Of a stretch of DNA of 64,000 bases, positions 4,414 through 42,089 are shown piece after piece. The notes beneath the pieces are model-generated. The model searched no databases, had not been told where the DNA came from, and was given only the letters and a program-made list of their open reading frames with translations. The translations under genes were made by a program, and so were the position numbers. Source of the DNA: Lachnospiraceae bacterium. GTDB lineage: Bacteria; Bacillota; Clostridia; Lachnospirales; Lachnospiraceae. How positions within the stretch are numbered: position 1 is the first letter of the stretch; every line of letters starts with the position of its first letter. The DNA is taken from NCBI GenBank assembly GCA_029067085.1, contig JAIEFE010000004.1:1-64000 (forward strand), given 5' to 3'.

Positions 4414-4479
4414 AATAACTCCAATCTATGCGGAGAATGCTCGTTTTTCCGGCATACTCCTGAATGAAATGACTTCTTT

Positions 4480-6180: not shown

Positions 6181-6203
6181 TCCGCCTTCCGAAAGGAGCT
6201 GCC

Positions 6204-7262
6204 TTGTTTCCGCTCTCAGTCTGTATGATAGCCAAAAACGAAGAGATTCATATCGAGGAATGCCTGCGACGTCTTGCGCCATACGGCTTTGAGATCGTGC
6301 TGACGGACACAGGCTCCACGGATCGCACCCTGGCGGTCGCAGAAAAATACACCGATCGGATCTTTCATTTCGACTGGTGCAATGATTTTTCCGCCGCCAG
6401 GAATTTCTGTATGGAGAAAGCTTCCCACGATCTCATTCTCTCCCTCGACTGTGATGAGTTTATTGAAAAGATCGATCCGACCGCACTCCTGCACTGTATG
6501 GAAAGCTGCCCGGACGCCGTGGGACGCATCCTGATCCGCAGCCGTTTTACGAAGGACGGCCGCACCACCTTTGATCAGACCCGTGTGAGCCGCCTCGCCG
6601 ATCGCAGACGGTTCTGCTTTACGGGCGCGGTACATGAACAGTTGACTAACCGCCGCTCCCCTGATCTCCCGAACAAAATTTATGACGCTCCTGTCACAAT
6701 TTTACATGTAGGCTATGATCTAAGCAACGATGCCATGCGGGAAAAATGTCGTCGCAACATTGCGCTGCTCACAGCCGAGCTTGATACACAGGGCCCCGAT
6801 CCTTATCTATATTGTCAGCTGGGCCTGTCCTACCGCAGATTGGGAGAAAATGAGAAGGCCTGCGAAAGTTTTGACGCCGGCCTGTCGCTTGATGTGGATC
6901 CCTCCCTGGACTATGTGCGGACTATGGTGGAATCCTACGGATACACGCTCTTAGACCTGAAGCGTAACCGGGAAGCGCTTGGACTTTCCTCTCTCTATGA
7001 GGCCTTTGCCGTCCGCGCGGATTTCGTTTTTTTGATGGGACTTGTGTACATGAACAACGGTCTCTTCGACAAGGCTGTCGCCGAGTTCAAAAAGTCTACC
7101 ACGATGACAGAGTTCTCCGTAGAGGGTGTTAATACTTATCTCGCCTATTATAACATGGGCGTGATTCTCGAATGCACCGGCCGCACGGATGAAGCGCGTG
7201 CCGCCTATAAAAAATGCGGGAGCTATGCCCCCGCACTAAATCGCTTGAAAAACCTACCTTAA
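6204..7262 (+). CDS. family 2 glycosyltransferase with TPR-like repeats, TTG start
   Basis: A paralogue of the preceding gene, sharing [40 protein letters not shown] and the LDCDEF metal motif, and ending in TPR-like repeats ([33 protein letters not shown]). I place the start at TTG 6204 because AAAGGAG lies 5 bases upstream, homology begins right after it, and it lies 23 bases past the first gene's stop; a longer frame from 6117 would run through that gene's end. The two are probably one operon. The 3' end overlaps the convergent glycogen phosphorylase gene by 9 bases. Confidence 0.85.
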
Positions 7263-9563: not shown

Positions 9564-9615
9564 GTTGAAAACCTCCCTTGTAAATTCTTATGAATAGTAC
9601 TGCACTTTTATATTG

Positions 9616-10605
9616 TTATATGATAACATCCATATACTGCATCCGCACAAGCTCATAGTCAAGAATGATCTGCTTTCCCTCACCGCCGTCCAAAAGACGT
9701 TTCAGCTCCACTACTGCCTCCGATGCGATCCGCTTAAAATCCTGTTTTACCGTGTTCATCTGCTTACCCGCATACCCCATCAGGGTGATGCCGTCAAAAC
9801 CGCAGACCGGCCGGAAAATATCCATCTCTATCAAGGCCCGCATTGCGCCTATCGCCATCAGATCGGAGGCGCAGACCACGATATTCCTCTTCTTCGCATA
9901 GCGGAAGGTCAGATTTCTGGCCAGAAGCTCGGAAAATTCTCCGTTTCGGATAAGCAGCGAAAGGCCTTCTTCCTCGGCAAGCCGCTTCATTCCTTTCAGC
10001 CGTTCCTCGCTGACGTAGCCGTTCTTCTTGCCTGCCAGATAGAGAACCCTCTTTCCCTCGTTCTCCATCAAAGTTTTCTTCGCCACATCATACTGCGCCG
10101 CCGCCTGATCGATCCATATAGCAGAGGAAGCTGCATTTACCAACGGCGCGTCCACCGTTACGATCTTGAAAAGCTGCGCGTCGATCAGCCGGTGCAGTAC
10201 CTTGTCCTCCTTGGACATCCCGAAGATGATGAGGCCTGTAATACTCTGGGATCGAAGGTAGCGCACCACTTCTTCAAGACTCCTGTTTTTCAGCATGGAA
10301 TCGAAGATGGTGATCACGTCCAGATTCAGCTCCACCGCTTTACCTATTGTACCTGCAATATACTGCATATAAATCTCATCCACTGCCTGAGAGACATTTC
10401 CCAGATTCAGAAGAAGAGCCACTCTTCCTGACTGCTTGGAAGAGAGCGCCGCCGCAACGGTATTCGGCACGAAATTCAGTTCTTCCACCGCTTGATTTAC
10501 TTTTTTCTTTGTCTCTTCGCTCACATTGGGATAGTTATTTAACACCTTGGATACGGTGGAAATGGCTACACCTGCATGCTTTGCGACATCCTTAATCGAT
10601 ACCAT
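9616..10605 (-). CDS. LacI-family transcriptional regulator
   Basis: A helix-turn-helix with the LacI hinge (SIKDVAKHAGVAISTVSKVLNNY) occupies residues 3-25, followed by a periplasmic-binding-protein-like sensor domain. I place the start at 10605 (MVSIKDVAK) and not at the longer upstream frame, because LacI proteins begin at the HTH. The protein is then 329 residues, normal for the family. Its position immediately upstream of glycogen phosphorylase suggests control of glucan use. The effector is unknown, probably a sugar. Confidence 0.85.
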   Translation of the reverse strand: MVSIKDVAKHAGVAISTVSKVLNNYPNVSEETKKKVNQAVEELNFVPNTVAAALSSKQSGRVALLLNLGNVSQAVDEIYMQYIAGTIGKAVELNLDVITIFDSMLKNRSLEEVVRYLRSQSITGLIIFGMSKEDKVLHRLIDAQLFKIVTVDAPLVNAASSAIWIDQAAAQYDVAKKTLMENEGKRVLYLAGKKNGYVSEERLKGMKRLAEEEGLSLLIRNGEFSELLARNLTFRYAKKRNIVVCASDLMAIGAMRALIEMDIFRPVCGFDGITLMGYAGKQMNTVKQDFKRIASEAVVELKRLLDGGEGKQIILDYELVRMQYMDVII

Positions 10606-10720
10606 CGTTTTTCCAATCTGTACGATTCCTGTCATTTGCGGAAATCGTTTTCCAAAATTATCATATAACAAAAGAGTGGCTTTGTAAACCACTCTTTTAA
10701 AAATTTACGAGGTTTTTCTC

Positions 10721-12094
10721 TCATTCCATCATCAGCATAATGCTTAGGCAGAATTCATCATCTTTTACGTCAATGGCTATATCTCCGGCATATTTCCTCG
10801 CCACCATGCGGATATTGGACAACCCATACCCATGACCGTCCGTTTTTTCCTTTGACGTGACGGGCAGACCTCTCTCTTCATCCCATTGCAGATTCCCGTT
10901 GAAGCTGTTGCTTACTTCAATCATATAGGCATTATTCCTGTGGTAAGAGAGAACCGATATATGTGGTGCCGCGCTTTTTTCTGTATTCTCCATCGCATTC
11001 TGCAGGGCATTATTCAGTATCACGCTGACATCGAATGCGTTGATGTTAGTACCGGTGGGATAATAAAATTCTGATTGGAAGTGTATGTTCCTTTTCTCCG
11101 CTTCATTTTTTAATTCCTGCAGAATCACATCCGTTACAGGATTTCCGCTTTTTATTTCCTCTGCCATTGGGGAAAGGGCAGATTTTAATTCCTTGCCATA
11201 ATCCAATGCCTCCTCCACATTGTTTCCGGCATAGAGCCTTTCTAATGTGAGGATATGATTTGTCATATCATGTTTCATACTCCTGATGCCCTGATACAAA
11301 TTTTCCACCTGCTCAATATGTCGTTTTAGATTATCTATCTGCGTGGAAAGTAACTGATTTGCTGTCTTTTCCTCCTGTGCCGCTTTTATATTCTCATAGA
11401 GCATGATCAAAATAACAACCACCATGATCGCCAATCCACAGTAAAACAGCAGCAGCATATCATACACCTCTGCCGTCTTTCCATTCTCCAATATATAAAA
11501 CCTGCGATAATAGCGTATGACTTTGTATCCCACCACTCCCAGAAATGGCGGACTTACCAACATAAGCAATTCCCGCTTTGTCATCTGCTCATATTTACAT
11601 ATATAACTTCTTGTGATACAACAGACTGCGGCAGTTGTGATCAAAAACACCATGATCAGATAAAATACACAGACTCCGACATAAACCATTAACTGCATGG
11701 ACATAGAGGGATTTCCTTGATACCACTTGGTTTTTTCCACCAAATGATACAGTCTGTCATATAGAAGTTCCGCTATTGTGGCGGTAAACCAGCGCAATGA
11801 AAAAAAGGTGATCGCAAGAAAAGCCTTTTGGATACCATTCCTCCGTTCCAGCCTGTACATCACCAGAAACACCGTAAGGCTTCCCAGTGCATATGCGATA
11901 AACGCATCCACATACAACGGCAGGACCTCAACTGCTAACATTGTCAGGAAATAAAACCCTCCTGCTGCCAATGCCGCCTTGGCACTCCTTAAAAACGGCT
12001 TTACGAACCTGTATAGACAGTATCCTTCAATACATAGTTCCATCATTGAAACTATTTGTGTAATACATTCACTCCAGTAATCAAAATCTGTCAT
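10721..12094 (-). CDS. AgrC-like GHKL sensor histidine kinase
   Basis: 457 residues. The N-terminal ~220 residues hold about six hydrophobic membrane segments. A coiled coil leads to the phospho-accepting H-box MKHDMTNHIL, then the GHKL ATPase N-box (NALQNAMENTEK) and G-box (GHGYGLSNIRMVARKY). This is the HPK10/AgrC class, which often senses peptides or cell-envelope signals. It begins 1 base after the LytTR regulator, so the two are one operon. No AgrD/AgrB-type peptide genes are adjacent, so the signal is not evident. Confidence 0.88.
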   Translation of the reverse strand: MTDFDYWSECITQIVSMMELCIEGYCLYRFVKPFLRSAKAALAAGGFYFLTMLAVEVLPLYVDAFIAYALGSLTVFLVMYRLERRNGIQKAFLAITFFSLRWFTATIAELLYDRLYHLVEKTKWYQGNPSMSMQLMVYVGVCVFYLIMVFLITTAAVCCITRSYICKYEQMTKRELLMLVSPPFLGVVGYKVIRYYRRFYILENGKTAEVYDMLLLFYCGLAIMVVVILIMLYENIKAAQEEKTANQLLSTQIDNLKRHIEQVENLYQGIRSMKHDMTNHILTLERLYAGNNVEEALDYGKELKSALSPMAEEIKSGNPVTDVILQELKNEAEKRNIHFQSEFYYPTGTNINAFDVSVILNNALQNAMENTEKSAAPHISVLSYHRNNAYMIEVSNSFNGNLQWDEERGLPVTSKEKTDGHGYGLSNIRMVARKYAGDIAIDVKDDEFCLSIMLMME

Positions 12095-19485: not shown

Positions 19486-19509
19486 CTTCACACATATTTA
19501 AAATTTTAC

Positions 19510-19558
19510 TGCGGATAACAGGATTTGAACCTGCACGGTCGCCCACTGGAACCTAAAT
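19510..19558. repeat. attL: 3' fragment of tRNA-Leu
   Basis: A 49-bp perfect copy of the 3' portion of tRNA-Leu (T-arm, variable region and part of the anticodon arm) with no matching 5' half. It pairs with attR at 42010-42058. Confidence 0.88.
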
Positions 19559-24178: not shown

Positions 24179-24883
24179 TTACGGCAGTCTGTTCATTCTC
24201 CTTCTTTTATCGGGTATATGATCGACAATAAAATCAAATAGTACCTTTAAATTATATCCATACTCAGCCGAATAATATACAGGTTTAGGAATTATGATAC
24301 CTGTCGCTTCTTTAACCCGTCTTTGAATGGAACTGGCTTGCTCTTCCAAAAAAGCAATCAATGTTGCATCTGGTAGTTTTGTTTGATTATTCCAATGCCT
24401 CCCTTTCATCGCCACATCTGCCTGATTAATTGCAACTAAAATACGTTTTCCTTGAATATTGGGGGCAATCACCTCATTTAGAAGAGTGTATGTAGTTCCC
24501 ATATCACGATTTGAGCCCTCGATAAGTACCAATACCATATCAACAAGACCATATGTATGTCCTTTATCAGAATATTTTGAATTAAGAAGATACACTATCT
24601 TCTTTTTATGCCGCTGGTCATTAATAACTCCATCACCAAGCCCCGGAGTATCCCATACACGAACTACATCATTAAGTCTATACTCACTCAATCTCAATGT
24701 TTCCGGATTAACACCGCTTCCGATTTCTGTTACCTTGCGATGAAAAATTGCATTTAACGTAGTGGATTTTCCTGCTCCGGTAACTCCTGTAACCATCAGC
24801 GTTATTAATGGAAGCTTAGCTTTTTTAAGTTTTTCTTCTATATCTTGCTTCCTATATATATCAAAATCCATGTTACAAACCAC
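24179..24883 (-). CDS. small P-loop GTPase (YfjP/COG3596-like), second of a tandem pair
   Basis: 234 residues, essentially one G domain: G1 GVTGAGKST near residues 33-41, G2-region threonine in NPETLRL, G3 WDTPGLGDG, G4 NQAD. This is the 50S-ribosome-binding-GTPase-like clan that includes YeeP/YfjP and resembles immunity GTPases. It lacks the glycine-rich C-terminal tail of its paralogue. The GTG at 24883 has AAGGG upstream and overlaps the previous gene by 11 bases; an ATG at 24871 is an alternative start. The overlap implies translational coupling. Confidence 0.8.
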   Translation of the reverse strand: MVCNMDFDIYRKQDIEEKLKKAKLPLITLMVTGVTGAGKSTTLNAIFHRKVTEIGSGVNPETLRLSEYRLNDVVRVWDTPGLGDGVINDQRHKKKIVYLLNSKYSDKGHTYGLVDMVLVLIEGSNRDMGTTYTLLNEVIAPNIQGKRILVAINQADVAMKGRHWNNQTKLPDATLIAFLEEQASSIQRRVKEATGIIIPKPVYYSAEYGYNLKVLFDFIVDHIPDKRRRMNRLP

Positions 24884-25859
24884 ACCAAATCCCTTTTATG
24901 AACCCACCTGCTCCACCGATCACACCGCCAACAAATTCACCGACCTTCCTAAGCCCAAATATTTCACCAATATCGCCACCAATCTTAGCCCCATTGCCAA
25001 TACCCTGAATGATAGCTGCCCCAAATCCTTCCATTATTTCTTTTTTGTAATCCCGCAGATTATCATCATCTTCCCACATTTCACTGTTGGAATTCATATT
25101 ATCCACATAAGAAAGTCTCTTCTTTTCAGGTGTGTTTTTAAGAATATAACAAAATAATTTAGAGAGATTATACGGCTTACATTGAGCTTTACCCGCTTCT
25201 TTAAAGCCCGCACAGTAATATATTGGATTAGTACTTATTCCCGTTCCCTCCTTAATACGTTTTTTTACCGATTCTACTTTTTCATTCAGAAATTCTACTA
25301 ACTGAGGCTCTGGCTTATTTTCCTCATAATTCCAATATCTTCCTTTCATAGCCACGTCCGCCTGATTGATCGCGACAAGTATCCTTTTTTCTTTTTCTTC
25401 ACCCAAATTAGGAATAATTACCTGATTAATCAGTTCGTAAGATGTACCCAGATCCCTTGTACTGCCATCCAATATTACAAGAACCAGATCAATCAGCAGA
25501 TTACCATCCTCGTCTCTTTCATTCAGCTTCTTTATTATGTTTTTAGCATGCCGATTATCCGCCTCCTTTCCATCCCCTAAGCCGGGGCTGTCCCATAACA
25601 CCAGATTATTCAGCTCATATTTAGTTATTTCCATGGTTTCCGGATCAACACCGACTCCCACTTTTGCAACCTCTACATTAAACAATGCATTAATTGTAGA
25701 ACTCTTTCCGCACCCGGTGGCACCTGTAATCATCAGATTTATCTCTTGTTTTTTAAGATTCAAAAAGTTTCTAAGCAATTTATTTTTCTCTGTTTCAGGA
25801 ATATCTGCATGCATAATATCCTGTTCCATTGCTTCAAAGAAATTATTTTCATTTCCCAT
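24873..25859 (-). CDS. P-loop GTPase with glycine-rich membrane-active-looking tail
   Basis: 328 residues. The G domain has G1 GATGCGKSST (~46-55), G3 WDSPGLGDG and G4 NQAD, and is clearly paralogous to the downstream GTPase. After a charged linker, residues ~275-328 form a glycine-zipper-like hydrophobic region (FGAAIIQGIGNGAKIGG; GGVIGGAGGFIKGIW) of the kind seen in pore-forming or membrane-inserting segments. AAAGGAG site upstream. A membrane-acting effector switched on by nucleotide state is a reasonable inference but is not shown. Confidence 0.8.
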   Translation of the reverse strand: MGNENNFFEAMEQDIMHADIPETEKNKLLRNFLNLKKQEINLMITGATGCGKSSTINALFNVEVAKVGVGVDPETMEITKYELNNLVLWDSPGLGDGKEADNRHAKNIIKKLNERDEDGNLLIDLVLVILDGSTRDLGTSYELINQVIIPNLGEEKEKRILVAINQADVAMKGRYWNYEENKPEPQLVEFLNEKVESVKKRIKEGTGISTNPIYYCAGFKEAGKAQCKPYNLSKLFCYILKNTPEKKRLSYVDNMNSNSEMWEDDDNLRDYKKEIMEGFGAAIIQGIGNGAKIGGDIGEIFGLRKVGEFVGGVIGGAGGFIKGIWCGL

Positions 25860-28023: not shown

Positions 28024-28142
28024 TCTGAATTCTAATTTCATTTTTTGGCTTACTTATTTTACAACACACCCTACATAATATTTCCATTGACGCGTCAGAA
28101 CATCTGTTCCATTACATTCCTACAGCTAAGGAGTTGATAGAC

Positions 28143-28339
28143 ATGGAAAGTATCTTGTGCATCAATATCCCAGTACAGATGATCTCCTGTACCGATACCG
28201 ACGGAAAGATCACCCCGATGCGCTTCCGATTCAAGGATAAACCGGAAGCCTCACTACAATACAGATCGGCTGTATTCTGAAAAGTGAACATAAGAGTAGC
28301 CACTTCCACGCCACTTTCACCTACGAACTGAGGTATTAG
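28143..28339 (+). pseudogene. frameshifted small conserved-looking gene
   Basis: An ATG with AGGAG upstream opens a frame beginning MESILCINIPVQMISCTDTD that stops after 45 codons. Shifting frame near 28255 gives a continuation (TIQIGCILKSEHKSSHFHAT) that runs to a stop at 28339. The pattern fits one small gene broken by a single indel. The family is not identified; its proximity to the relaxase suggests element housekeeping. Confidence 0.4.
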
Positions 28340-28424
28340 GCATGAAGAAAAGCTTTGAGCTTCATTACAATTATTCTGCACACGCATGTTCTCTGAGAAG
28401 AATTGTACTCTACATGTAAACTGG

Positions 28425-28454
28425 GGGCATGACTAACCGCCTGTAGACATGCCC
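28425..28454. terminator. hairpin after the relaxase gene
   Basis: GGGCATG (28425-28431) and CATGCCC (28448-28454) form a 7-bp stem with a 16-nt loop downstream of the relaxase stop. The U-tract is poor. Confidence 0.4.
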
Positions 28455-28482
28455 TTGCTAGTATAACTTCCATAATGATACC

Positions 28483-29040
28483 TTAATTCCAAAAAATCTC
28501 TGTTTCAAAAGCATCAGGAATCATGAAACTTCGCATATAGTCATTAAAAATCTGCACTCTTGTATGGTTTTCTCTCATATTTGTATGCCACTTATTTCCC
28601 GTCAGAAAGTTGATTGCATTAACTACAAAATGAATATGTAGACTCTGCGTTCTACTCTGACAATCTCCTTTTGCATGATGTATTGCATATATAACCTGAT
28701 GCCCCATCGCATAGTAATATTTCGCACAGTTCATGGCTATCTGACATACCCGATCATAATCATACCCGAGTTTTGCAAATTCCTCCTCTTTTATTCCCAA
28801 CACTTCGTGAAATATTCTTGATCCACCCCTTGATGCTATTCCATGTGCTGTCTGCAAATGGCAAAACTGTTCAATGGCTAATTCCGGTGTTTGATAAGTA
28901 GCAATCCCCATACCTCCCCATGTTATCAGTTCATTTGCCCTGTCTTCCATCGGCCTCGTTCTGGTTATGTAACGTATTACTTTTTCCACTGCGTCACGGT
29001 TTGTATATCTTCCTCTTCTCATCATCATAAGCATTGCCAT
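28483..29040 (-). CDS. small relaxase/mobilization nuclease
   Basis: 185 residues. SLHIHFVVNAINFLTGNKWHT matches the relaxase metal-binding motif III (HxHxxxN) and the following TGxKWH signature; GSRIFHEVLG and VIYAIHH are consistent with the upstream strands. The N-terminus RRGRYTNRDAVEKVIRYITRTR could hold the nicking tyrosine. Compared with typical 300-500 residue MOB relaxases it is short and lacks a C-terminal helicase/primase part. Relaxases cut one strand at oriT and lead it into the recipient. It overlaps the MobC-like gene by 16 bases. Confidence 0.75.
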   Translation of the reverse strand: MAMLMMMRRGRYTNRDAVEKVIRYITRTRPMEDRANELITWGGMGIATYQTPELAIEQFCHLQTAHGIASRGGSRIFHEVLGIKEEEFAKLGYDYDRVCQIAMNCAKYYYAMGHQVIYAIHHAKGDCQSRTQSLHIHFVVNAINFLTGNKWHTNMRENHTRVQIFNDYMRSFMIPDAFETEIFWN

Positions 29041-29351
29041 AGTTTATTGTCCTCCTCCGCCAATTCCAATATCTTTTCACAAAGCTCTTTAGGGACTGAT
29101 TCATCCTGCAAGAGTTTAAAAATATCATTAAAAATATTCTGACTATTTATTAATATCCCTGCTCGTTTCTTGTCTTTACTACTCCTCCTCTCCATTCCGG
29201 CCAGTGCTGCGTCAGTCAAATATTGGCTTGTCGACTTGCCTTCCTTTTTTGCTTGTTTTTTAATTTTCTCCTTTTCCTCCTTCGTTACTCTTGCGGTGAT
29301 CGATACATCCTTCCAATCTGCCCTTTTTCCCAATTCTCCACCTCCTGTCAT
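29025..29351 (-). CDS. MobC-like ribbon-helix-helix mobilization accessory protein
   Basis: 108 residues. VSITARVTKEEKEKIKKQAK then STSQYLTDAALAGM is a ribbon-helix-helix DNA-binding unit of MobC/relaxosome type. The C-terminal half is helical (LCEKILELAEEDNKLWQCL). Such proteins bind near oriT and help the relaxase nick. It is first in the mobilization operon, overlapping the relaxase start. The perfect palindromes lie immediately upstream. Confidence 0.75.
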   Translation of the reverse strand: MTGGGELGKRADWKDVSITARVTKEEKEKIKKQAKKEGKSTSQYLTDAALAGMERRSSKDKKRAGILINSQNIFNDIFKLLQDESVPKELCEKILELAEEDNKLWQCL

Positions 29352-30181: not shown

Positions 30182-30214
30182 AAACCCGGCAAAACAATCT
30201 ATTTCGCCGGGTTT
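30182..30214 (-). terminator. terminator of the CHAT operon
   Basis: AAACCCGGC and GCCGGGTTT pair perfectly around a 15-nt loop; on the minus strand the stem runs into TTTT. It lies 28 bases beyond the stop of the 136-aa gene. Confidence 0.7.
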
Positions 30215-30241: not shown

Positions 30242-30652
30242 TCAATTTTTGAAAAGATCAGTAAGTAATTGTGCGATTTTTTCAAGAATACCATCATTGG
30301 AAGCTTTGTGCTCCAGAAGGAACTCCCATTTACCATCTTTTGTTCTATGGATTTTGATGTGTGTACTTAGGAGAAACAACGCAGCAATCAAAACCTCTGC
30401 CTCCAGCAAACCTGGAATAGCAAAAGTTTGGATAACCTGTGCGTTTTCCCGGCAGCGCTTTACCGCAGAGGATAAAGCAGGCTCTTTCTCTGCAAATATA
30501 ATTACATCATCCCAAAAGTCTATGGGCAATGGCGCAGGCAGGTCGATTTGGTCTTGATATTGCAAATAAAAATCTGTAAAAGCGGGATTCTGCTGTGCCA
30601 AGGCAATTATCGTTCTTTTTTTGTCATATGTAGAATATTCAACTGTTTTCAT
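30242..30652 (-). CDS. small partner protein of the CHAT-STAND-TPR genes
   Basis: 136 residues. It overlaps the end of the CHAT-STAND-TPR gene upstream by 14 bases, so the two are probably translationally coupled. The N-terminal half is helical (TIIALAQQNPAFTDFYLQYQ). A hydrophobic helix follows (GLLEAEVLIAALFLLSTHI), then a basic beta stretch (KIHRTKDGKWEFLLEHKAS) and a terminal helix. No known toxin or nuclease motif is seen. It could be an effector, an adaptor or the CHAT protease substrate; all three are inference. Confidence 0.65.
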   Translation of the reverse strand: MKTVEYSTYDKKRTIIALAQQNPAFTDFYLQYQDQIDLPAPLPIDFWDDVIIFAEKEPALSSAVKRCRENAQVIQTFAIPGLLEAEVLIAALFLLSTHIKIHRTKDGKWEFLLEHKASNDGILEKIAQLLTDLFKN

Positions 30653-33600
30653 CGTTCAGTTCACCTTCCATTTCTTCCAGAATTTTTGTCAGTTCCTCGG
30701 GTATACTTGTCTCCCATGCCCGCCTCAATTGGCTGTGCTCTGTACCTACAGTCGCATGCAGCAGACGAGCATAACCACAGATTGCAAACATCACGTTGTA
30801 TGTGTCATTTGTATCAACAAACATTTTAATGGATCTTAAATAGAAATTACCTGCTTGTAAAAAAATCCGCCGCTCCTCGGCCATGGTACCCAGTTGATAG
30901 TAAATACAAGCCGCGTCATGCTTATTGTTTAGCTTCTTAAAAATTGTGAGCGCCTTTTTGTACCAAGCTTCAGCGACCATAAAATCCCGCTGCTCCTCGG
31001 CAATGGTACCCAGTTGATAGTAAGTACTAGCCGCGCTATGCTCATCGTGTTGTTTTTCCTTAATCGCCAGGGCCTTTTTGTACCAAACTTCGGCGCCTTG
31101 AAGATCTCGCTGTTTCTGGGCAATAATGCCCAGTTCATGGTAGACGATGGCTTTGTCATATTCACTATCTTTTTTTTCAAAAATTACCAGCGCCTTTTGA
31201 AGCCAGGCTTCGGCGGTTGCATAATCCCGCTGTTCCTGAGTAATACAGCCTAGGTGATGGTAAGTGATAGCCGCGCTATACTCATTGCCTTGTTTTTCAA
31301 AAATCATCAGCGCCTTTTTGTACCAGTTTTCGGCACCCGCAAAATCCCGCTGTTCCTCAGCGATCATGCCCAATGCATGGTAAATGGAAGCTGCATCATA
31401 CTCATTGCCTTGTTTTTCTTCTATCACCAGCGCCTTCTTGTACCAATTTTCAGCTACTATAAAATCACGCTGTTTCCGAGCAATCATGCCCAGTGCATAA
31501 TAGATGCGAGCCACGTCCTGATCATTGCCTTGTTTTTCAAAAATTACCAGCGCTTTTTGGAGCCAGGCTTCGGCGGCTACAAAATCTCGTTGCTCCTGAG
31601 CAATGATACCCAGTTCATAGTAGGTGAGAGCCGGGCCATAATCATTGTCCTGTTTTTCTTCTATCGTCAACGACTTTTTGAACTGGGCTTCGGCGACCGC
31701 AAAATCTCGTTGCTCCTCAGCAATGATACCCAGTGCATGGTAGATAAGAGCCGCGTCATGCTCATTGCCTTGTTTTTCCTTTATCGTCAACGACTTTTTA
31801 AACCAGTCTTCAGCGACCGCAAAATCACGCTGTTCTAGGGCAATTTTACCCAATTGATAGTAGGCGTTGGACGCAGCTTCTCCATTTTTAGAAAATTCGG
31901 CTTTTTCCGCAAGAGCCAAATACAGTTTTTTTGCTTCTGCAAAGCAGCGCATTTCTTCCGCATGATATGCGAGACTTTGCGTCAAAACTATATAATCTAT
32001 ATCCCTATTCTGGGCTTTGGCTAACTGTCTTGCATAGTAAAAATTCACAATATTAATTTGGTAGGTAGCATTTACTTGATACAGCGGTTTACCGTTCAGA
32101 GCATTAGCAAGACTTCCCATGATATTCACAAAAGCTCTCTGCATGGGCTCCGAGGCAGGCATCTGCCGTAGTAGATATCCCCGCAAAACAGGGTGAAGCT
32201 GGTAGACATTCTGTCCTATATGGGTGCAGAAACCAGCGTTTTCCAGAATATGATAACATGCATTGACCATATCCACTTCCACAGGGCATCCTACTGTATC
32301 TAGCATTGATTTCACACAATCCGCTTTCGCGTGGAACTCGTGCAGGCCGGTCATCCTCAATACGGGAAGATACTTTTCTGTAAGACTGCTGCCGAATACG
32401 GCATAAGCAGCCTGCAACCGTCTCGTGCTCTCATCCCCCTCCATTCCTTCAAAGTTGCTTTCCAAGTCGACTAACAGCTGTTCGGCAGAGGAATTCCGAA
32501 GCCGCAACAGGATGGATCGGATGGCCAGAGGATTGCCGCACAGTTTGTCAAGAATTTTGACGTAAGTCTCATTGCTTCGGTCCAGTGTCAAGCCAAGATC
32601 TCCTACAACAGCATTGCAGTACTCCCATAAATCTTCTCCCGTCAAACCGCCCAAGGGAAGCCGGTAGCAGATTGGTATCGACAGCCAGGCTTCCTCACTT
32701 CTGCTTGTGATTAACACCTTCGTTTTCCCCGTGCGGAGTTCCTTCAGCAAGCGGGCCAGAATCTCCCGATCCTCTGTACTGAGCTGCGGCTGGATCTCCG
32801 TTCCCTCAATACCGGAAGCGGATTCAAAGTTGTCCCACACCAGCAGGCATGGCTTGTCCCGCAGCAGCCTTGTCAAGTTCTTCTGCTTTTCCTCTGCCGG
32901 CCATGCCAGGGCCGAAGTGTCCGCCAGTTGATCCAGCACCCGATTGATGACATACTCAGCGGAATGAATTTCCTGGAAGTTGAACCAGAAAACTTCCCGC
33001 CGCAATCCACCGGACTGACTCAGCCAGTGCAGAAAACCTTTTGCGAGACTGGTCTTGCCGACTCCAGCTTGACCGTGTATCAGGATTGCCGCCTGGGGCT
33101 GACGAATCATGGCTCGCTCTAGCCTCTGTATATCACGCCCTCTGCCGATAAAGCCATAATCACCGTCTACCCTTGCGTCCTCTGGTATGGATAAAGCTTC
33201 TTCGTCTGATCTCTCTGCTGTCCGGATCTTCGGTAAAACCACGCTCTCAGAAGACATCTGCTGGTACAAAACCGGGACTACCCAATCCTGCAAAGGTAGC
33301 TGTCCCACAATGCAGTCCCGTTTGGGCTGCTGCAGCATCTTTCCCCGGCCGGCGCGCACCGCTTCGGATACTACACCGGTGGAAAACAAACGCTCGTAAA
33401 ATGCCGGAATGAACGTTTTCGCGCCGCTTACATAGAGGGAGTAACCCATAGCCACTACACTGCGGACACCAGCCCTGAGCAGTCCTGCTGCCACACTGGC
33501 AAAAGGATCCTGCGCTTGACCGTCGATCATGCCGGACTGACAGGCATTCATCACCATGAATGGGATGTTATATTCCGCCAGCAGCTGAGCAAGCAACCTT

Positions 33601-34403
33601 GTGTCAATCGGGTCAGGTTCACCGTTTTCTGATTCAAAAACAAGACGGCCCTCCGGAGCAGCATACAGGTTCTCGGCAGGCTTGTCCATGACTTCGCCGT
33701 AGCCGCCATGACCGTCAAAATGGACGATATGGTAGTAGCCGGGATGTTCGTAAAGTACCTTCCTCAGTTGGTCAAAGGTTGGCGGGCGCAGGATGTCCAC
33801 AGCGACGGGCAGACTACTTTTCTTGATATACCCCATCAGGCTGTTGGCCAGTACGTTATAACTTACATCGTTTTCCCCATAAGGACGGGGAATAACGTAC
33901 AGTATATGTATAGAGTCCTGGGCCGGAGCAACCTGCAGCGGTGGCGGGTCGCCGATATTGGAGAGCTGTCGATCAATACAACAGCGCAGGGCCAGCCAGC
34001 CATCGTCCCCGCTGTACAGAGTTTCCCAAGGCCATGACAGGATCTCAGGCGAATCGCTTGTGATCTTAATGCGGAACCCGTCAAAATTCTGCCTCTTAGC
34101 GTTCTGGTACCAGTCCTGCGCGTACCCAGTAAACAGCGCATCGAAAATCGAAGCGCCCCATGCCTGCATCGTCTTTTCGACGCATTCTGCCAATTGAGGA
34201 AATACACCATAGGGGATTTGCAGATAGTCCTCCAGATACCAGCGCAACTCAGGAAGAAATTGCTTTGCAGGATGTTCTTCCACAGGAAACTTTGCGGGAT
34301 CTGGTAAGGCCACCGCCGCAGTGTGCTTCATATCCATGCTGCGGATTACCTCGAACATAGCGTTGCCGTTCTGATTACCGATATGATGGATCTGAAGTTC
34401 CAT
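30639..34403 (-). CDS. CHAT protease-STAND NTPase-TPR protein (copy 2)
   Basis: 1254 residues from MELQIHHIGN (AAAGGAGG upstream). Residues ~1-390 are a CHAT caspase-like domain: His232 in HFDGHGG and Cys288 in NACQSG form the expected dyad. After FIGRGRD, a STAND/NB-ARC NTPase follows with Walker A HGQAGVGKTS (444-452), Walker B CLLVWDNFE (Asp524) and sensor LITSRSEEAW, then winged-helix and spacer regions. The C-terminus has nine TPRs of 40 residues. This is a sensor-switch-protease plan: TPRs detect, NTPase oligomerises, CHAT cleaves. Target and trigger are unknown. Paralogue of the next gene. Confidence 0.9.
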   Translation of the reverse strand: MELQIHHIGNQNGNAMFEVIRSMDMKHTAAVALPDPAKFPVEEHPAKQFLPELRWYLEDYLQIPYGVFPQLAECVEKTMQAWGASIFDALFTGYAQDWYQNAKRQNFDGFRIKITSDSPEILSWPWETLYSGDDGWLALRCCIDRQLSNIGDPPPLQVAPAQDSIHILYVIPRPYGENDVSYNVLANSLMGYIKKSSLPVAVDILRPPTFDQLRKVLYEHPGYYHIVHFDGHGGYGEVMDKPAENLYAAPEGRLVFESENGEPDPIDTRLLAQLLAEYNIPFMVMNACQSGMIDGQAQDPFASVAAGLLRAGVRSVVAMGYSLYVSGAKTFIPAFYERLFSTGVVSEAVRAGRGKMLQQPKRDCIVGQLPLQDWVVPVLYQQMSSESVVLPKIRTAERSDEEALSIPEDARVDGDYGFIGRGRDIQRLERAMIRQPQAAILIHGQAGVGKTSLAKGFLHWLSQSGGLRREVFWFNFQEIHSAEYVINRVLDQLADTSALAWPAEEKQKNLTRLLRDKPCLLVWDNFESASGIEGTEIQPQLSTEDREILARLLKELRTGKTKVLITSRSEEAWLSIPICYRLPLGGLTGEDLWEYCNAVVGDLGLTLDRSNETYVKILDKLCGNPLAIRSILLRLRNSSAEQLLVDLESNFEGMEGDESTRRLQAAYAVFGSSLTEKYLPVLRMTGLHEFHAKADCVKSMLDTVGCPVEVDMVNACYHILENAGFCTHIGQNVYQLHPVLRGYLLRQMPASEPMQRAFVNIMGSLANALNGKPLYQVNATYQINIVNFYYARQLAKAQNRDIDYIVLTQSLAYHAEEMRCFAEAKKLYLALAEKAEFSKNGEAASNAYYQLGKIALEQRDFAVAEDWFKKSLTIKEKQGNEHDAALIYHALGIIAEEQRDFAVAEAQFKKSLTIEEKQDNDYGPALTYYELGIIAQEQRDFVAAEAWLQKALVIFEKQGNDQDVARIYYALGMIARKQRDFIVAENWYKKALVIEEKQGNEYDAASIYHALGMIAEEQRDFAGAENWYKKALMIFEKQGNEYSAAITYHHLGCITQEQRDYATAEAWLQKALVIFEKKDSEYDKAIVYHELGIIAQKQRDLQGAEVWYKKALAIKEKQHDEHSAASTYYQLGTIAEEQRDFMVAEAWYKKALTIFKKLNNKHDAACIYYQLGTMAEERRIFLQAGNFYLRSIKMFVDTNDTYNVMFAICGYARLLHATVGTEHSQLRRAWETSIPEELTKILEEMEGELNDENS

Positions 34404-34457
34404 AGGAATGTCCTCCTTTGTAATTAAGATCGATAACGAATACAACTCATAGTCTCA

Positions 34458-34488
34458 ATTATACTATACTCTATTTGATTTAGATAAG
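34458..34488 (-). promoter_or_regulatory. promoter-like region before CHAT copy 2
   Basis: TATAAT (34463-34458, minus strand) with a weak TTATCT upstream. The surrounding ~100 bases closely match the region before copy 1 (38240-38360), so each copy has its own promoter. Confidence 0.45.
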
Positions 34489-34561
34489 CCAACAGAAATA
34501 TCAATTCATTATCAAGAATTCCAGCCGTAGCTTGTCCATCTCTCCCACGCTCTCCATTTCT

Positions 34562-37500
34562 TCAACTGTTGGGGTTATTCAGTTCATCCCCCATTTCTTC
34601 CAGAATTTTTGTCAGTTCCTCGGGCATACATGTCTCCCATGCTCGCCTCAATTGACTCTGCTCCGTACCTGCAGTCGTATGTAACAGACGAGCGTAACTA
34701 CCAATCACAATCATTATGTTATGTGTGCTATTTGCATTTTTAAACATTTTGATGGATTTTAAATAAAAATCACCTGCTTGTAGAAAAGTCTGCTGTTCCT
34801 CGGCAATGATGCCCAGTTGATGATAGGTGATGGCCGCATCATGTTCATTGCCTTGTTTTTCGTCTATCGCCAACGACTTTTTGTACCAGACCTCAGCAGT
34901 CGCAAAATTCCGCTGTTCCTGGGCAGCTCTACCCAATCCATAGTAAGTGATGGTCGCATCATGTTCATTGCCTTGTTTTTCCTTAATCGCCAGTGCTTTT
35001 TTGTACCAAGCTTCTGCGGTCGCAAAATCCCGCTGTTCAAAGGCATTATTGCCCAGTTCATGGTAGGTAATGGCCGCGCAATACTCATCGTCTTGTTTTT
35101 CAAAAATCGCCAGCGCCTTTTTGAGCCAGGTTTCGGCGGCCGTAAAATTTCGCTGTTCCCAAGCAATCCTGCCCAGTTGATAGTAGATGATGGCCGCACC
35201 ATGCTCATCGTCTTGTTTTTCAAAAATCGCCAATGCCTTTTTGTATCGGTCTTTGGCGGCTGCAAAATTCCTCTGTTCCTGGGCAATAACGCCCAGTTGA
35301 TGGTAGGTGCTTGCCGCGCCATGCTCATTGCCATGTTTTTCCTTAATCGCCAGCGATTTTTTGTACCAAGCTTCTGCGGTCGCAAAATCCCGCTGTTCAA
35401 AGGCATTATTGCCCAGTTCATGGTAGGTAATGGCCGCACCATGCTCATCGCCTTGTTTTTCGTCTATAGCCAACGCCTTTTTGTACCAAGCTTCTGCAGC
35501 AATAAAATCCTGCTGTTTCTCGGCAATCATGCCCAGATGATGGTAAGTAATGGCCGCACCATGCTCATCGCCTTGTTTTTCGTCTATAGCCAACGCTTTT
35601 TTGAACAAGGTTTCGGCACCCGAAAAATCCCTCTGTTCTTCGGCTATTCTGCCCAGATGATGGTAGGCAGTGGCCGCAACTTCCCAATGATTAGAAGATT
35701 CAGCATTTTGTACCTGTGCCGAATACAGTTTATTCGCTTCTGCAAACCGACGCATTTGTTCCGCATGATACGCAAGACTCTGGGTCAAAGCCAAATAATC
35801 TATATCCATATCTTGGGCTTTGGCCAACCGTCTTGCATAGTAAAAATTCACAAGATTCATCTGGTAGACATTCTGAACTTGATACAGCGACTCATCGATC
35901 AAATCGTCCGCAAGCCTTCCCATAATATCCACAAAACCTTTCTGTATAGACTCCGGGGCTGGCGTCTCCCGCAGCAGGTATCCTCGCAAGGCAGGGTGGA
36001 GCTTGTAGATATTCTTTCCTATATGGGTGCAGAAACCGGCGTCTCCCAGAATATGATAGCATGCATTGACCATATCTGATTCTACAGGACATCCTGCCGC
36101 ATCCAGCATTGCTTTCACATAATCCGTATCTGCGTAAAACTCATGCAAGCCGGTCACCTGCAATATAGGCAGATAACGATCTGTAAGGCTGCTACCAAAT
36201 ACGGAATAAGCAGCCTGCAGCCGTCTCGTGCTCTCGTCCCCCTCTATTCCCTCAAAACAGCTTTCCAGTTCAGCTAGCAGCTGTTTGGCGGAGCAATTTT
36301 GAAGTCGCAACAGGATGGACCGGATAGCTAGTGGATTACCGCACAGCTTATCAAGAATGGCCGCGTAGTTCTCGTCGCTTCGGTCTAGTGTCAGTCCAAG
36401 ATCTCTTACCACAGCATTGCAGTATTCCCAAAGGTCTTCTCCATTTAGGCCGTCCAGGGGAAGCCGGTAGCAGGACTGCATCGGCAGCCAGGCTTCCTCA
36501 CTTCTACTTGTGATCAGCACCTTCGTTTTCCCCGCGCGAAGTCTTTTCAGCAGCTGGGCAAGGATTTCCCGATCCTTTGTGTTTAGCTGCGGCTCAATCT
36601 CCGTCCCCTCAATACCGGAAGCGGATTCAAAGTTGTCCCACACCAGCAGGCAGGGCTTGTCCCGCAGCAGGCTTATCAAGAGATTCTGCTTTTCCCCTGC
36701 CGGCCATGCCAGGGAGGAAGTGCCCACCAGTTCGTCCAGCACCTGGTTGATGACATACTCTGCGGATTGAATTTCTTGGAAGTTAAACCAGAAAACCTCC
36801 CCCCGCAGTCCGCCGGACTGGCTCAGCCAGCGAAGGAACCCTTTTGCCAGGCTGGTCTTGCCAACTCCGGCTTGGCCGTGTATCAGGATTGCCGCCTGGG
36901 GCTGACGAATCATGGTGCCCTCCAACCTCTGGATATCGCGTCCTCTTCCGATAAAATCATAATCACCGTCCACCCTCGCGTCCTCTGGCAGAGTGGAAGT
37001 TTCTTCGCCTGGTTCCTCTGCAGGCCGCAGCTTCGGCAAAACCACGCTCTCAGAAGACATCTGTTGGTACAGCACCGGGACTACCCAATCCTGCAGGGGC
37101 AGCTCCCCAACGATGCAGTCCCGTTTGGGCTGCTGTATCATCTTTCCCCGGCCAGCACGCACCGCCTCAGATACTCTGCCGGTGGAAAACAAACGTTCAT
37201 AAAACGCCGGAACGAACGCTTTTGCGCCACTTACATAGAGAGAGTATCCCATGGCTACCACACTGCGGACACCAGCCCTGAGCAGTCCTGCCGCCACACT
37301 GGCAAAAGGATCCTGCGCCTGGCCATCAATCATGCCAGACTGACAGGCATTCATCACCATGATCGGGATGTTATATTCCGCCAATAGTTGAGCAAGCAGC
37401 CTTGTATCAACAGGGTCAGCTTGGCCGTTTTCTGCTTCAAAAACAAGCTGGCCTTCCGGGGCAGCATACAGGTTTCCGGCAGGCGTGTCCATGACCGCGC

Positions 37501-38206
37501 CGTAGCCGCCATGACCATCAAAATGGACAATATGGTAATGGCCAGGATGGTCGTAAAGCATCTTCCTCAGCTGCTCAAAGGTGGGCGGCCGCAGGATGTC
37601 CACAGTGATCGGCAGGCTGTTTGTGTTGATATAGCCCATCAAGCTGTTGGCCAGTACGTTATAATTTACATCGTTTTCTCCGTAAGGCCTGGGGATGACA
37701 TACAGAATATGGATGGCGTCTTGGTCCAAAGTGGCTGGCAGGGGTGGCGGATCACCGATACTGGAGAGTTGCCGGTCAATACAGCAACGCAGAGCTAGCC
37801 AGCCGTCGTCCCCGCTATACAGAGCTTCCCATGGCCAAGACATGATCTCGGGCGAATCACTTGTGATCTTTATACGGAAACCTTCAAAATTCTGCCTCTT
37901 TGCATCCTGATACCAGTCCCGAGCGTATTCAGTAAACAGCGTGTTAAATATCGAAGCGCCCCATACCTGCATAGTCTTTGCGATACACTCTGCCAATTGA
38001 TGATATACTCCAAATGGGATTTGCAGATAGTCTTCCAGATACCAGCGCAGTTCAGGAAGAAATTTCTTTGCAGGATGTCCTTCCACAGGAAACTTTGCGG
38101 GATCTGGCAGAGCCACCGCCGCAGTGTGCTTCATATCCATGCTGCGTATCACCTCAAACATAACACTGCCGTTCTGATTGCCAATATGATGAATCTGAAG
38201 TTCCAT
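34562..38206 (-). CDS. CHAT protease-STAND NTPase-TPR protein (copy 1)
   Basis: 1214 residues from MELQIHHIGN (AAAGGAGG upstream). The domain order and key residues match copy 2: CHAT dyad in HFDGHGG and NACQSG, FIGRGRD linker, Walker A HGQAGVGKTS, Walker B CLLVWDNFE, LITSRSEEAW, then eight TPRs in place of nine. The 40-residue difference is exactly one TPR. The N-terminal CHAT/NTPase parts are nearly identical between copies, while the repeats differ most, which would fit selection on the sensing surface (inference). The protein is cytoplasmic, with no signal or membrane segments. Confidence 0.9.
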   Translation of the reverse strand: MELQIHHIGNQNGSVMFEVIRSMDMKHTAAVALPDPAKFPVEGHPAKKFLPELRWYLEDYLQIPFGVYHQLAECIAKTMQVWGASIFNTLFTEYARDWYQDAKRQNFEGFRIKITSDSPEIMSWPWEALYSGDDGWLALRCCIDRQLSSIGDPPPLPATLDQDAIHILYVIPRPYGENDVNYNVLANSLMGYINTNSLPITVDILRPPTFEQLRKMLYDHPGHYHIVHFDGHGGYGAVMDTPAGNLYAAPEGQLVFEAENGQADPVDTRLLAQLLAEYNIPIMVMNACQSGMIDGQAQDPFASVAAGLLRAGVRSVVAMGYSLYVSGAKAFVPAFYERLFSTGRVSEAVRAGRGKMIQQPKRDCIVGELPLQDWVVPVLYQQMSSESVVLPKLRPAEEPGEETSTLPEDARVDGDYDFIGRGRDIQRLEGTMIRQPQAAILIHGQAGVGKTSLAKGFLRWLSQSGGLRGEVFWFNFQEIQSAEYVINQVLDELVGTSSLAWPAGEKQNLLISLLRDKPCLLVWDNFESASGIEGTEIEPQLNTKDREILAQLLKRLRAGKTKVLITSRSEEAWLPMQSCYRLPLDGLNGEDLWEYCNAVVRDLGLTLDRSDENYAAILDKLCGNPLAIRSILLRLQNCSAKQLLAELESCFEGIEGDESTRRLQAAYSVFGSSLTDRYLPILQVTGLHEFYADTDYVKAMLDAAGCPVESDMVNACYHILGDAGFCTHIGKNIYKLHPALRGYLLRETPAPESIQKGFVDIMGRLADDLIDESLYQVQNVYQMNLVNFYYARRLAKAQDMDIDYLALTQSLAYHAEQMRRFAEANKLYSAQVQNAESSNHWEVAATAYHHLGRIAEEQRDFSGAETLFKKALAIDEKQGDEHGAAITYHHLGMIAEKQQDFIAAEAWYKKALAIDEKQGDEHGAAITYHELGNNAFEQRDFATAEAWYKKSLAIKEKHGNEHGAASTYHQLGVIAQEQRNFAAAKDRYKKALAIFEKQDDEHGAAIIYYQLGRIAWEQRNFTAAETWLKKALAIFEKQDDEYCAAITYHELGNNAFEQRDFATAEAWYKKALAIKEKQGNEHDATITYYGLGRAAQEQRNFATAEVWYKKSLAIDEKQGNEHDAAITYHQLGIIAEEQQTFLQAGDFYLKSIKMFKNANSTHNIMIVIGSYARLLHTTAGTEQSQLRRAWETCMPEELTKILEEMGDELNNPNS

Positions 38207-38260
38207 AGGAATACCCTCCTTTGTAATCGAGATTAATAGCGAATACAACCCATAGTCTCA

Positions 38261-38290
38261 ATTATACTATACTCTATTTGTTTCAGATAA
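38261..38290 (-). promoter_or_regulatory. promoter-like region before CHAT copy 1
   Basis: TATAAT (38266-38261, minus strand) with a weak TTATCT upstream, in a block nearly identical to the one before copy 2. Confidence 0.45.
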
Positions 38291-38438
38291 GCCAACTGAA
38301 ATATCCTTTCTTTATCAAGATTTCCACCCTTAACCTGTCCATCTCTCCCACGCTCTCCTTTTTTTCCCTGATTTTTTCCTATCCCAGCTTCTGCGATCCC
38401 CACTACCACTTACCTTATTACTTATATACTTCCAAATT

Positions 38439-39590
38439 TTATTTCCTGTGCTCTCCCAACTTTAATTGATCAAGTGCTTTCTCTTTCATCTGGTCTGATA
38501 CATGCGTATAAATGTCCATGCTCGTGGTAATTGTCGAATGTCCCAACAATTCCTGTACCAGCTTCATAGAGACGTCGGATTCAATCAGAAGCGTCGCAAA
38601 TGTATGTCGCAGATCATGAAACCGCACATCTGTAATGTGATATTTCTGTAAAAACTGATGATACTTATCCATAAACTCTCTTTGATAAAGATAATTCCCT
38701 CTTTCATCTGTAAAAACCAGCCCCTGATCCAGATATTGTTCCCCCTGTGATGCCTTTAGAATCTCCTGTCTCTTTTTTTGCTCCACCAAAGCAGTATAGA
38801 CCTCATCAAGCATTGGAATCATCCTGATACTTTTCTTTGTTTTAGGTTCTAAAATCTTATATGACACGCGATAACGTCCATCTTCTCCCGGTTGCTCATC
38901 ATACACACGGCATAAGCTGTTTTTTACATATATCTTTCGCTCGTTGAAATCTACATTTTCCCACTTTAATGCCATGACCTCTCCTTTCCGCATTCCGGTG
39001 TATACCGTTGTGACAACGATAGGATACAGTTCTTCTCCCTTTGCTTCGACTACAATCCTTTCAACCTCTTCTCTGGTAAGCACCTTTGCTTCATACCTCT
39101 CCTTTGGAGGGAGCGTAGTAAAAATATTGGGGTTCTCAGGGATCATTTTAAGCTTAAATGCCCTATCCAATGCGCTGTTAAAGATTACTTCAATCGAACG
39201 GACATATTTGCTGCTGTAGCCCTCTTTGAGCTTTTCATTATAATACTGCTGCAAATTGGCAGCCTTTACATTCTCCAGTTTTGTCATTCCCAGCTGCGTA
39301 TTCAGGATATGCTTACGATATCTGAGCATATATGAATTATAAGTTGTTACCTTTAACTCATTCTTCTTATAATTCTGCAAAAACTCCAATATCCATTCTT
39401 GAAACAGATAGGGCTTACCCTTTATAGTTCTGCCCGCCTGCTTTTCTTTCAATTTCCGTTTTACCTCACTCTGCGTCTTCCCATATACAAAATGACGGCT
39501 AAATTGCTCATCAAAATATGCTCCGCACCATCTTCCGTCTTTTCTCTTAAAAATCGTTCCCTCTCCATTACTCCTTTTTCCCATTTTCAT
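38439..39590 (-). CDS. tyrosine-type site-specific integrase
   Basis: About 383 residues with an N-terminal AP2-like arm-binding region (GEGTIFKRKDGRWCGAYFDEQ), a SAM-like core-binding domain and a catalytic domain holding the R-H-R-H-Y set: TGMRKGEVMALKW, HDLRHTFATLL, ELLGHSTITTSMDIYTHV. It integrates the element into the tRNA-Leu 3' end. I place the start at 39590 (AAGGAG just upstream); ATG 39584 is also possible, and a longer frame from 39761 would overlap the excisionase. Related to Tn916-type integrases. Confidence 0.92.
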   Translation of the reverse strand: MKMGKRSNGEGTIFKRKDGRWCGAYFDEQFSRHFVYGKTQSEVKRKLKEKQAGRTIKGKPYLFQEWILEFLQNYKKNELKVTTYNSYMLRYRKHILNTQLGMTKLENVKAANLQQYYNEKLKEGYSSKYVRSIEVIFNSALDRAFKLKMIPENPNIFTTLPPKERYEAKVLTREEVERIVVEAKGEELYPIVVTTVYTGMRKGEVMALKWENVDFNERKIYVKNSLCRVYDEQPGEDGRYRVSYKILEPKTKKSIRMIPMLDEVYTALVEQKKRQEILKASQGEQYLDQGLVFTDERGNYLYQREFMDKYHQFLQKYHITDVRFHDLRHTFATLLIESDVSMKLVQELLGHSTITTSMDIYTHVSDQMKEKALDQLKLGEHRK

Positions 39591-39648
39591 ACTCTCCTTC
39601 CCAATTAAAAAAGAGCCACATTCCTGTAGCTCTTTTCCCATAATCCGC

Positions 39649-39822
39649 TTATTTTTCTTTTCTTCCGTTGATCCACTCGGTAAATTTTTCTTTCGGAACG
39701 AGACGTTTCTTTCCCAACTCCAGTGCTGGAATCGTTCCATTCCTGACCAATTCATAGGCATAACTTCTGCTAATCCCTAGCAATTCTGCCACTTCTTGAA
39801 TTGAATACACCAATTTTTCCAT
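39649..39822 (-). CDS. excisionase (Xis-type helix-turn-helix)
   Basis: 57 residues: MEKLVYSIQEVAELLGISRS, then AYELVRNGTIPALELGKKRLV is the winged-helix DNA-binding fold of excisionases that bend att DNA and favour excision. It lies 58 bases upstream of the integrase on the same strand. Start 39822 has GAGGTG 8 bases upstream and fits the family better than the longer frame at 39843. Confidence 0.85.
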   Translation of the reverse strand: MEKLVYSIQEVAELLGISRSYAYELVRNGTIPALELGKKRLVPKEKFTEWINGRKEK

Positions 39823-42004: not shown

Positions 42005-42009
42005 TTTTA

Positions 42010-42089
<80 letters not shown>

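Follow-up and report, generated by a model that had tools for sequence, protein, structure and literature searches.

Among the described systems closest to the locus considered here, the Csx29 (TPR-CHAT) protein of type III-E CRISPR combines a CHAT cysteine protease with tetratricopeptide repeats (TPRs), is activated by a cue and, as reported, cuts its genetically linked protein substrate Csx30 once (PMC10028731). The protease-gasdermin pairs of fungi and bacteria are likewise reported as two-gene clusters, in which a receptor with a CHAT or serine protease and a repeat domain is encoded beside a small executor, and they include NOD-like receptors (NLRs) with a CHAT domain (PMC12881547). Our locus lies in a 64,000-nucleotide stretch, called the window below, of a Lachnospiraceae bacterium (GenBank assembly GCA_029067085.1, contig JAIEFE010000004.1, positions 1 to 64,000), and consists of two tandem genes for large CHAT-NTPase-TPR receptors followed by a gene for a protein of 136 residues. 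We read it as a two-component, NLR-like immune (abortive-infection) module carried as mobile cargo, in which the small protein is most likely a latent effector acted on by the CHAT protease; the probability of this reading is, in our estimate, about one half. No description of this receptor with this partner was found in the literature as covered by titles and the beginnings of abstracts, a coverage that leaves out most subscription journals and preprints.

Both receptor genes lie on the minus strand, copy 1 at 34562..38206 (1214 amino acids) and copy 2 downstream of it at 30639..34403 (1254 amino acids). The small partner gene (30242..30652, same strand) overlaps copy 2 by 14 nucleotides (30639-30652), in agreement with the coordinates and gene layout of the initial annotation. 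The longest open reading frames (ORFs) of the receptors are 34562-38248 and 30639-34445 (minus strand), and translation probably starts from the ATGs at 38206 and 34403, each preceded by AAAGGAGG and located 14 codons into the longest ORF. Pfam matches above the curated cut-offs define, in copy 1 and copy 2, respectively, and always on the minus strand, a CHAT domain (PF12770; 37106..37885 and 33282..34082; E-values 3e-19 and 2e-18), a STAND NTPase (36305..36934 and 32496..33104) recognised by both the NACHT (4e-10 and 5e-10) and the NB-ARC models (2e-9 and 3e-10), and a TPR array (TPR_12; 4e-50 and 3e-66). The catalytic dyad, His232 (HFDGHG) and Cys288 (NACQS), is intact in both copies, and both contain the Walker A (GQAGVGKT), Walker B (LLVWDNFE) and sensor 1 (VLITSR) motifs of the NTPase, accompanied in copy 1 by a GNPL motif and, further on, an LHPAL motif. 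The match to PF12770 together with the His/Cys dyad places the receptors among the CHAT-domain proteases, and the succession of an N-terminal effector, an NB-ARC/NACHT module with Walker A/B and sensor, and C-terminal repeats is the layout of STAND, NLR-like proteins; the motifs and receptor-like architecture described in the initial annotation are thus borne out. The only CHAT matches in the assembly, which is 83.6% complete, come from these two receptors.

The receptor copies and the small gene are under purifying selection, beyond chance: comparing the copies over 847 codons gives a ratio of nonsynonymous to synonymous substitution rates (dN/dS) of 0.166 (0.107 for the CHAT part, 0.206 for the NTPase part), and comparing the small gene with its homologue at locus L026 from another metagenome-assembled genome (MAG) gives 0.204. 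The copies are 81% identical in protein sequence before the repeats. Since their synonymous distance from each other (0.594) is about the distance of either copy to the single receptor gene of L026 (0.505 and 0.594), the duplication is not recent. The duplicated unit takes in the upstream region with a promoter-like sequence, TTGGCT-18-TATAGT, which is a consensus match only and precedes both copies (38266..38295 and 34463..34492, minus strand), and it does not take in the small gene; 3' of the copy 1 stop the sequence diverges at the point where the small gene follows copy 2, and no such gene accompanies copy 1. Tandem receptor genes recur: in Tahibacter (L069, 9764-13834) and in a Bathycorpusculum MAG (L045, 10732-11229, cut by the locus end) the first receptor gene is immediately followed by a second, the MAG presumably being archaeal, judging by its name. 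The terminator that the initial annotation had placed behind the small gene corresponds to a terminator-like hairpin of 15 pairs (30182..30214, minus strand), read as such because of its position and long stem and not because of the number of such sites, which in this region is below that of shuffled sequences (4 versus a mean of 8.0).

Relatives of the receptor were collected with a seven-sequence alignment from a genome collection of 84,980 species, and the best 80 of 223, representing 79 distinct loci, were analysed. HFDG and WDNFE were among the scan patterns, which biases their conservation among the loci, while the NAC motif and Walker A are free of this bias. The ORFs of the 79 loci were searched with a single-pass, non-iterated profile of 24 chosen small proteins; an iterated hidden Markov model was dropped, having drifted into the NTPase and TPR regions of the receptor (109 matches in the last round). 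Outside the Cyanobacteria there are 58 loci, 13 of which end no more than 304 nucleotides behind the receptor, leaving 45 readable ones. A homologous small gene lies downstream of the receptor in 24 of these (frame-shifted in L044) and is fused in frame to the receptor C-terminus in one more (L027), so that the small gene does accompany such receptors elsewhere, one of the points on which the initial annotation had staked its interpretation. Loci with the small gene come from Lachnospiraceae, Oscillospiraceae, Nitrosomonas, Rhabdochromatium, Competibacter, Paraburkholderia, Bryobacterales, Phycisphaerae, Zavarzinella, Desulfovibrio, Electrothrix and Zixiibacteriota, among others. Because several loci share a genome (L063 and L101, L045 and L051, L083 and L089), these counts refer to loci and not to independent events. 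The spacing between the small gene and the preceding frame of at least 150 residues has a median of 3 nucleotides (range -17 to 441) and stays within 101 nucleotides in 22 of 24 cases, namely 23 loci of the scan and the plasmid locus L018, with L044 and the window left out.

The association is also tight from the side of the small gene. Of the genomes that carry the 58 non-cyanobacterial loci, 44 were searched whole with the profile, and 28 of these have exactly one copy; the one in G589 (locus L025), close to the beginning of a separate contig, is only putatively linked to the receptor. Genomes sampled irrespective of the receptor gave no match at E-values up to 1e-4, neither in 347 others of the phylum nor in 273 others of the class of G597, with first-look candidates only partly scored in some of them. 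When 295 genomes of the order were searched with a single sequence, the small gene turned up in G000, G286 and G114. The G114 gene (contig of L060) stands behind a full receptor with an 8-nucleotide overlap, and the frame-shifted gene of G286 follows the terminal part of a TPR protein where a contig begins, in an assembly in which the front part of the receptor was not found. The small protein of G114 had five weak matches in the phylum (E-values 0.004-0.008), which were taken as noise; the 347 genomes without a profile match may or may not include theirs. The small gene was never seen apart from this kind of receptor, and the receptor does occur without the small gene, for instance in G125 (contig of L047). 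On genomic grounds, then, the small protein is shown to be the receptor's dedicated downstream partner.

The structure predicted for the small protein (predicted local distance difference test, pLDDT, 84.4; predicted template modelling score, pTM, 0.80) has two parts, an N-terminal domain of four helices (residues 8-71) and a helix-strand-strand-helix module (84-135; helix 84-95, strands 99-103 and 109-113, helix 121-135), joined by a linker (72-83). The ten-residue block of lowest confidence (71-80, pLDDT 62) lies between the two. Within positions 70-86 the best conserved residue is F77 (F in 18, Y in 3, L in 3 and others in 4 of 28 sequences), and elsewhere L95 (27 of 28), T97 (20), H98 (20), G107 (25), W109 (19), E114 (18) and K116 (21) stand out. 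The best 19-residue hydropathy mean ranges from 1.3 to 2.4 in 24 proteins. As for known families, these 24 proteins gave only stray matches in one or two members with Pfam (best E-value 0.037) and NCBIfam (0.03) and none at 0.01 with PADLOC or PHROGs; the window protein alone gave a stray Cas1_IIIb match (0.035). Among PDB profiles its best match was a designed protein (0.25), Foldseek found nothing below 0.001 in PDB or BFVD, and the family scans found no nuclease or other enzyme domain. Gasdermin was rejected as its identity, with no similarity by Pfam, PDB profile or Foldseek, and Csx30 was rejected with no family match.

The C-terminal module has been exchanged at some loci. In two of the 45 readable loci, both from Accumulibacter, the N-terminal domain of the small protein is fused beside the receptor to a DUF900 alpha/beta hydrolase (L065, 9730-11184, and L101, 2768-4216; Pfam E-values 2e-37 and 2e-36), and both fusions retain F77. 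A third Accumulibacter locus, L063, has a stop-to-stop receptor frame of 2192 residues (3773-10348) in which about 1100 residues matching no Pfam family precede the CHAT domain. Because the DUF900 module has been swapped in behind the same N-terminal domain, a docking part and an effector part are suggested for the small protein, and the module exchange together with the conserved linker residue leads us to prefer, as first choice, a latent effector that CHAT would cut or release. The C-terminal TPR array would recognise an infection cue, which would release the NB-ARC/NACHT switch and, as in related families, lead to assembly of the receptor; this in turn would turn on the N-terminal CHAT protease, whose dyad is conserved. 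The small protein would be held latent as a helical docking domain and a hydrophobic helix-hairpin-helix module with a flexible linker between them until active CHAT cuts or rearranges it, and the C-terminal module, once freed, could harm the cell, perhaps at the membrane. The same fusions also resemble the behaviour of adaptor domains, so the small protein might instead be an adaptor or co-sensor, similar to effector-associated domains, that binds either the TPRs or CHAT and brings in the actual substrate or an effector; the caspase-superfamily domain of VMAP proteins is reported always to have an alpha/beta-hydrolase neighbour (Kaur et al. 2020, PMC7159879). Against this, a further effector gene did not come to notice downstream of the small gene, with the neighbours of the 79 loci not systematically annotated, and we consider an adaptor rather improbable.

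The cyanobacterial relatives form a clade of 21 loci, 15 of them readable, and fall into one fully supported group in the receptor tree, which was built from 77 loci and both window copies with L102 and L036 left out. Downstream of the receptor, on the same strand, 14 of the 15 carry a different small gene of about 130-150 codons, which is broken into two frames in L098; L093 has none. The model of its product (pLDDT 88, pTM 0.84) is almost entirely helical, the sequence has a hydrophobic C-terminal stretch, and the best Foldseek match in PDB has an E-value of 2.0. Homology of the two small families is taken as unproven (hhalign probability 7%). At L095, the receptor and the small gene are separated by a gene for an AAA_16/KAP-type NTPase (10627-11919).

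Several observations weigh against the small protein being a latent effector cut by CHAT. In 18 of the 45 readable non-cyanobacterial loci the small gene was undetected, which weakens the idea of a simple receptor-plus-substrate pair, and 16 of the 44 genomes have no small gene anywhere; among the 18, L031 has at the place of the small gene an ORF of 67 residues, the first 30 of which resemble the small protein by eye. In the L027 fusion a free substrate is impossible without a cut. Among the 14 cyanobacterial loci with a small gene, six have it 1.0-2.6 kb downstream of the receptor frame, and a mechanism common to both small families is an assumption, since their homology is undetectable. Finally, the hydrophobic helix is only borderline as a membrane segment, and the model of the protein is a compact fold. 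This compactness, the median spacing of 3 nucleotides and the L027 fusion would fit a stoichiometric subunit equally well, that is, a regulator or chaperone that, like an inhibitor or antitoxin, keeps the receptor off while CHAT acts on host or viral proteins. Such a regulator is, in our view, unlikely: the 18 loci manage without it, copy 1 lacks one of its own, and the replacement of the C-terminal module by a hydrolase in Accumulibacter would be odd in a pure inhibitor.

Under the latent-effector reading the TPR arrays would be the sensors, and they show turnover. The array of copy 1 (34826..35665, minus strand) has 7 full units of 40 residues and that of copy 2 (30903..31862, minus strand) has 8, each unit spanning 120 nucleotides and each array followed by a diverged last unit. 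Between the copies the units are about 60% identical at any offset (0.596 at offset 0, 0.607 over all pairs), compared with 0.681 within copy 1 and 0.604 within copy 2, while the 87-residue stretch behind the array is 69% identical. Because unit-to-unit positional correspondence is gone, unlike in the 81%-identical part before the array, the arrays have been rebuilt since the duplication. Against the array of the phage-contig relative described below, registers 0 and +1 of the window arrays fit slightly better than the others (0.69-0.71 versus a mean of 0.65), and at L053 four readable units have a mean identity of 91%. Conservation within the unit is uneven, with a fixed TPR frame and a few variable columns, the most variable of which, the phage copy included, are 5, 15, 2, 27, 38, 8 and 14. 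Columns 5 and 8 would equal positions 9 and 12 of the standard TPR, which face the concave ligand surface. The two receptors with their independently rearranged arrays may thus provide two specificities feeding one effector, and the repeat turnover seen between the copies would offer a way to measure how sensors diversify in a bacterium.

The receptors and the small gene sit on a 22.5-kb element integrated at tRNA-Leu, as the initial annotation had supposed for a mobile element. One attachment repeat (42005..42058) lies in the 3' part of the tRNA gene (42010-42089) and the other (19504..19558) at the far end of the element, the two matching at 98% over 55 columns. The element encodes a phage-type (tyrosine) integrase (38439..39761), a NikA-like protein (29025..29351) and a short MobA/VirD2-like relaxase of 185 residues (28483..29040), all identified by Pfam on the minus strand. 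The site is empty in the congener G969, where the tRNA (1633-1712 of L152) adjoins the left flank from position 1786, and it also looks empty in G957 (tRNA part 1-75 and flank 187-407 of L153, at a contig start). With its integrase, attachment repeats, empty site and relaxase, the element belongs to the integrative mobilisable class, its mobilisation being predicted. In G972, G967, G973 and G959 the same site apparently holds other inserts of roughly 8-25 kb, sizes estimated from how far apart the matched pieces of the flanks lie; in G959 these pieces are incomplete. The G972 insert contains a PDC-S20 candidate-defence gene (PADLOC, E-value 7e-165; 10 of its 20 ORFs scanned), and among the congeners tRNA-Leu seems to be a hotspot of integration. 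The other genes of the element have DEAD/ResIII helicase-like, WYL, DUF5688, DUF932, YqaJ and Rad52-like products. Two adjacent GTPase genes with AIG1/IIGP/MMR_HSR1 matches (24179-25859, minus strand) possibly form another cargo system, and an ORF of 91 codons without a Pfam match follows the relaxase ORF (28112-29040 together, minus strand); the mobilisation gene may be shortened.

Relatives of the receptor also occur on plasmids and are patchily distributed across phyla, and one was found in viral DNA. In a scan of viral contigs, a single one of 33 pattern matches was found to encode a relative: an IMG/VR contig of 40.8 kb, of which 19.8 kb was read, carries a receptor 83% identical to that of the window, overlapped by 17 nucleotides by a small gene 72% identical to the window's; a single-sequence search with the window small protein in plasmids, phages and viral contigs gave no match. 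This cassette is flanked by an integrase-like gene and a block of endolysin, holin and tail-fibre genes, beyond which baseplate, tail and tape-measure genes follow. Since the integrase-like ORF has only 206 residues and the contig begins 1.3 kb before the receptor, a position of the cassette inside the phage boundary is no more than likely. The phage-contig copy and the PADLOC candidate found at this tRNA-Leu gene in G972 make immune cargo likelier, which strengthens one part of the initial annotation, an interpretation partly supported as a whole. If the CHAT-NTPase-TPR proteins instead regulated development, stress or the maintenance of the element, this would accord with the lack of a reported defence phenotype of this pair in the literature found, and with PADLOC matches that are only partial (TPR model, E-value 2e-20; CHAT-type models, 2e-5 to 5e-4). 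Carriage on an integrative element, plasmids and a phage contig, the patchy spread, the array turnover and PDC-S20 at the same site nevertheless speak against a non-immune function, which we regard as very unlikely. The recurrence of the pair in distant bacteria and on a phage fragment suggests an undescribed anti-virus self-destruct switch.

Comparison with known systems sharpens what is particular to this locus. Csx29 is not known to contain an NTPase switch, whereas the window receptor has an NB-ARC/NACHT switch between its N-terminal CHAT domain and the TPRs. Of the likeness to Csx29 invoked in the initial annotation the protease type remains, while neither Cas7-11 nor a Csx30 homologue was present among the flanking genes scanned, the whole genome not having been searched, and Csx30 has 565 residues (PMC10028731) compared with the 136 of the small protein. 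The protease-gasdermin pairs differ in their executor, as the window protein has no gasdermin match and bacterial gasdermins are about twice its length. In the Canu, Hachiman and AVAST protease-activated nucleases, a protease is described as activating a neighbouring pro-effector (PMC12799240), whereas no enzyme domain was found in the window small protein. System 4 of Kaur et al. likewise has two genes, a small protein (EACC1) with one hydrophobic helix and alpha+beta parts and a caspase-superfamily protein whose partner domains include STAND or repeat domains, as here; EACC1 is reported as the 5' gene (PMC7159879), whereas the small gene in the window is downstream. By eye, with the EACC1 strands judged from sequence, both proteins have the same order of hydrophobic helix, strand, turn, strand and helix. 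EACC1 (PF19953) was nevertheless rejected as the identity of the small protein: its profile matches none of the 24 members, and in 32 genomes the model exceeded its cut-off in three, never at the small gene, which was not among the matches at E-values up to 1. On remote homology the evidence divides: the profile of the helix-strand-strand-helix module scored 4.4 against the EACC1 of locus L161, above all 500 shuffles, and 0.2 against that of L162, reached by 46 of 500 shuffles; hhalign of the module with these two sequences gave no match. In Candidatus Electrothrix (L161), whose genome also has the small-gene system, the EACC1 gene (1441-1827) overlaps a gene that is caspase-like by eye (1811-3283).

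The sensors have their nearest parallel in the fungal het-d/het-e NLRs, in which highly similar repeats under concerted evolution are reported to vary at few positions per repeat; those are WD40 repeats of over 80 to 100% identity (PMC12222747), whereas the window has TPRs of 40 residues that are 60-68% identical within copies. Tentatively, and as a possibility we would not yet call probable, these comparisons point to an as yet undescribed class of caspase (CHAT) receptors, NLR-like and widespread, that would have a new small-fold, exchangeable executor, be it the helix-hairpin module, the DUF900 hydrolase or the unrelated cyanobacterial helical protein, and would alter their specificity by rearranging the TPR arrays; such systems would be to bacteria what the NLR-gasdermin clusters are to fungi, without the gasdermin. 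If this is true, the executor fold would be new and would span, by our assignment of the phyla, Bacillota to Planctomycetota, and bacterial immunity would include a receptor-protease-executor pathway parallel to inflammasomes and to the incompatibility NLRs of fungi.

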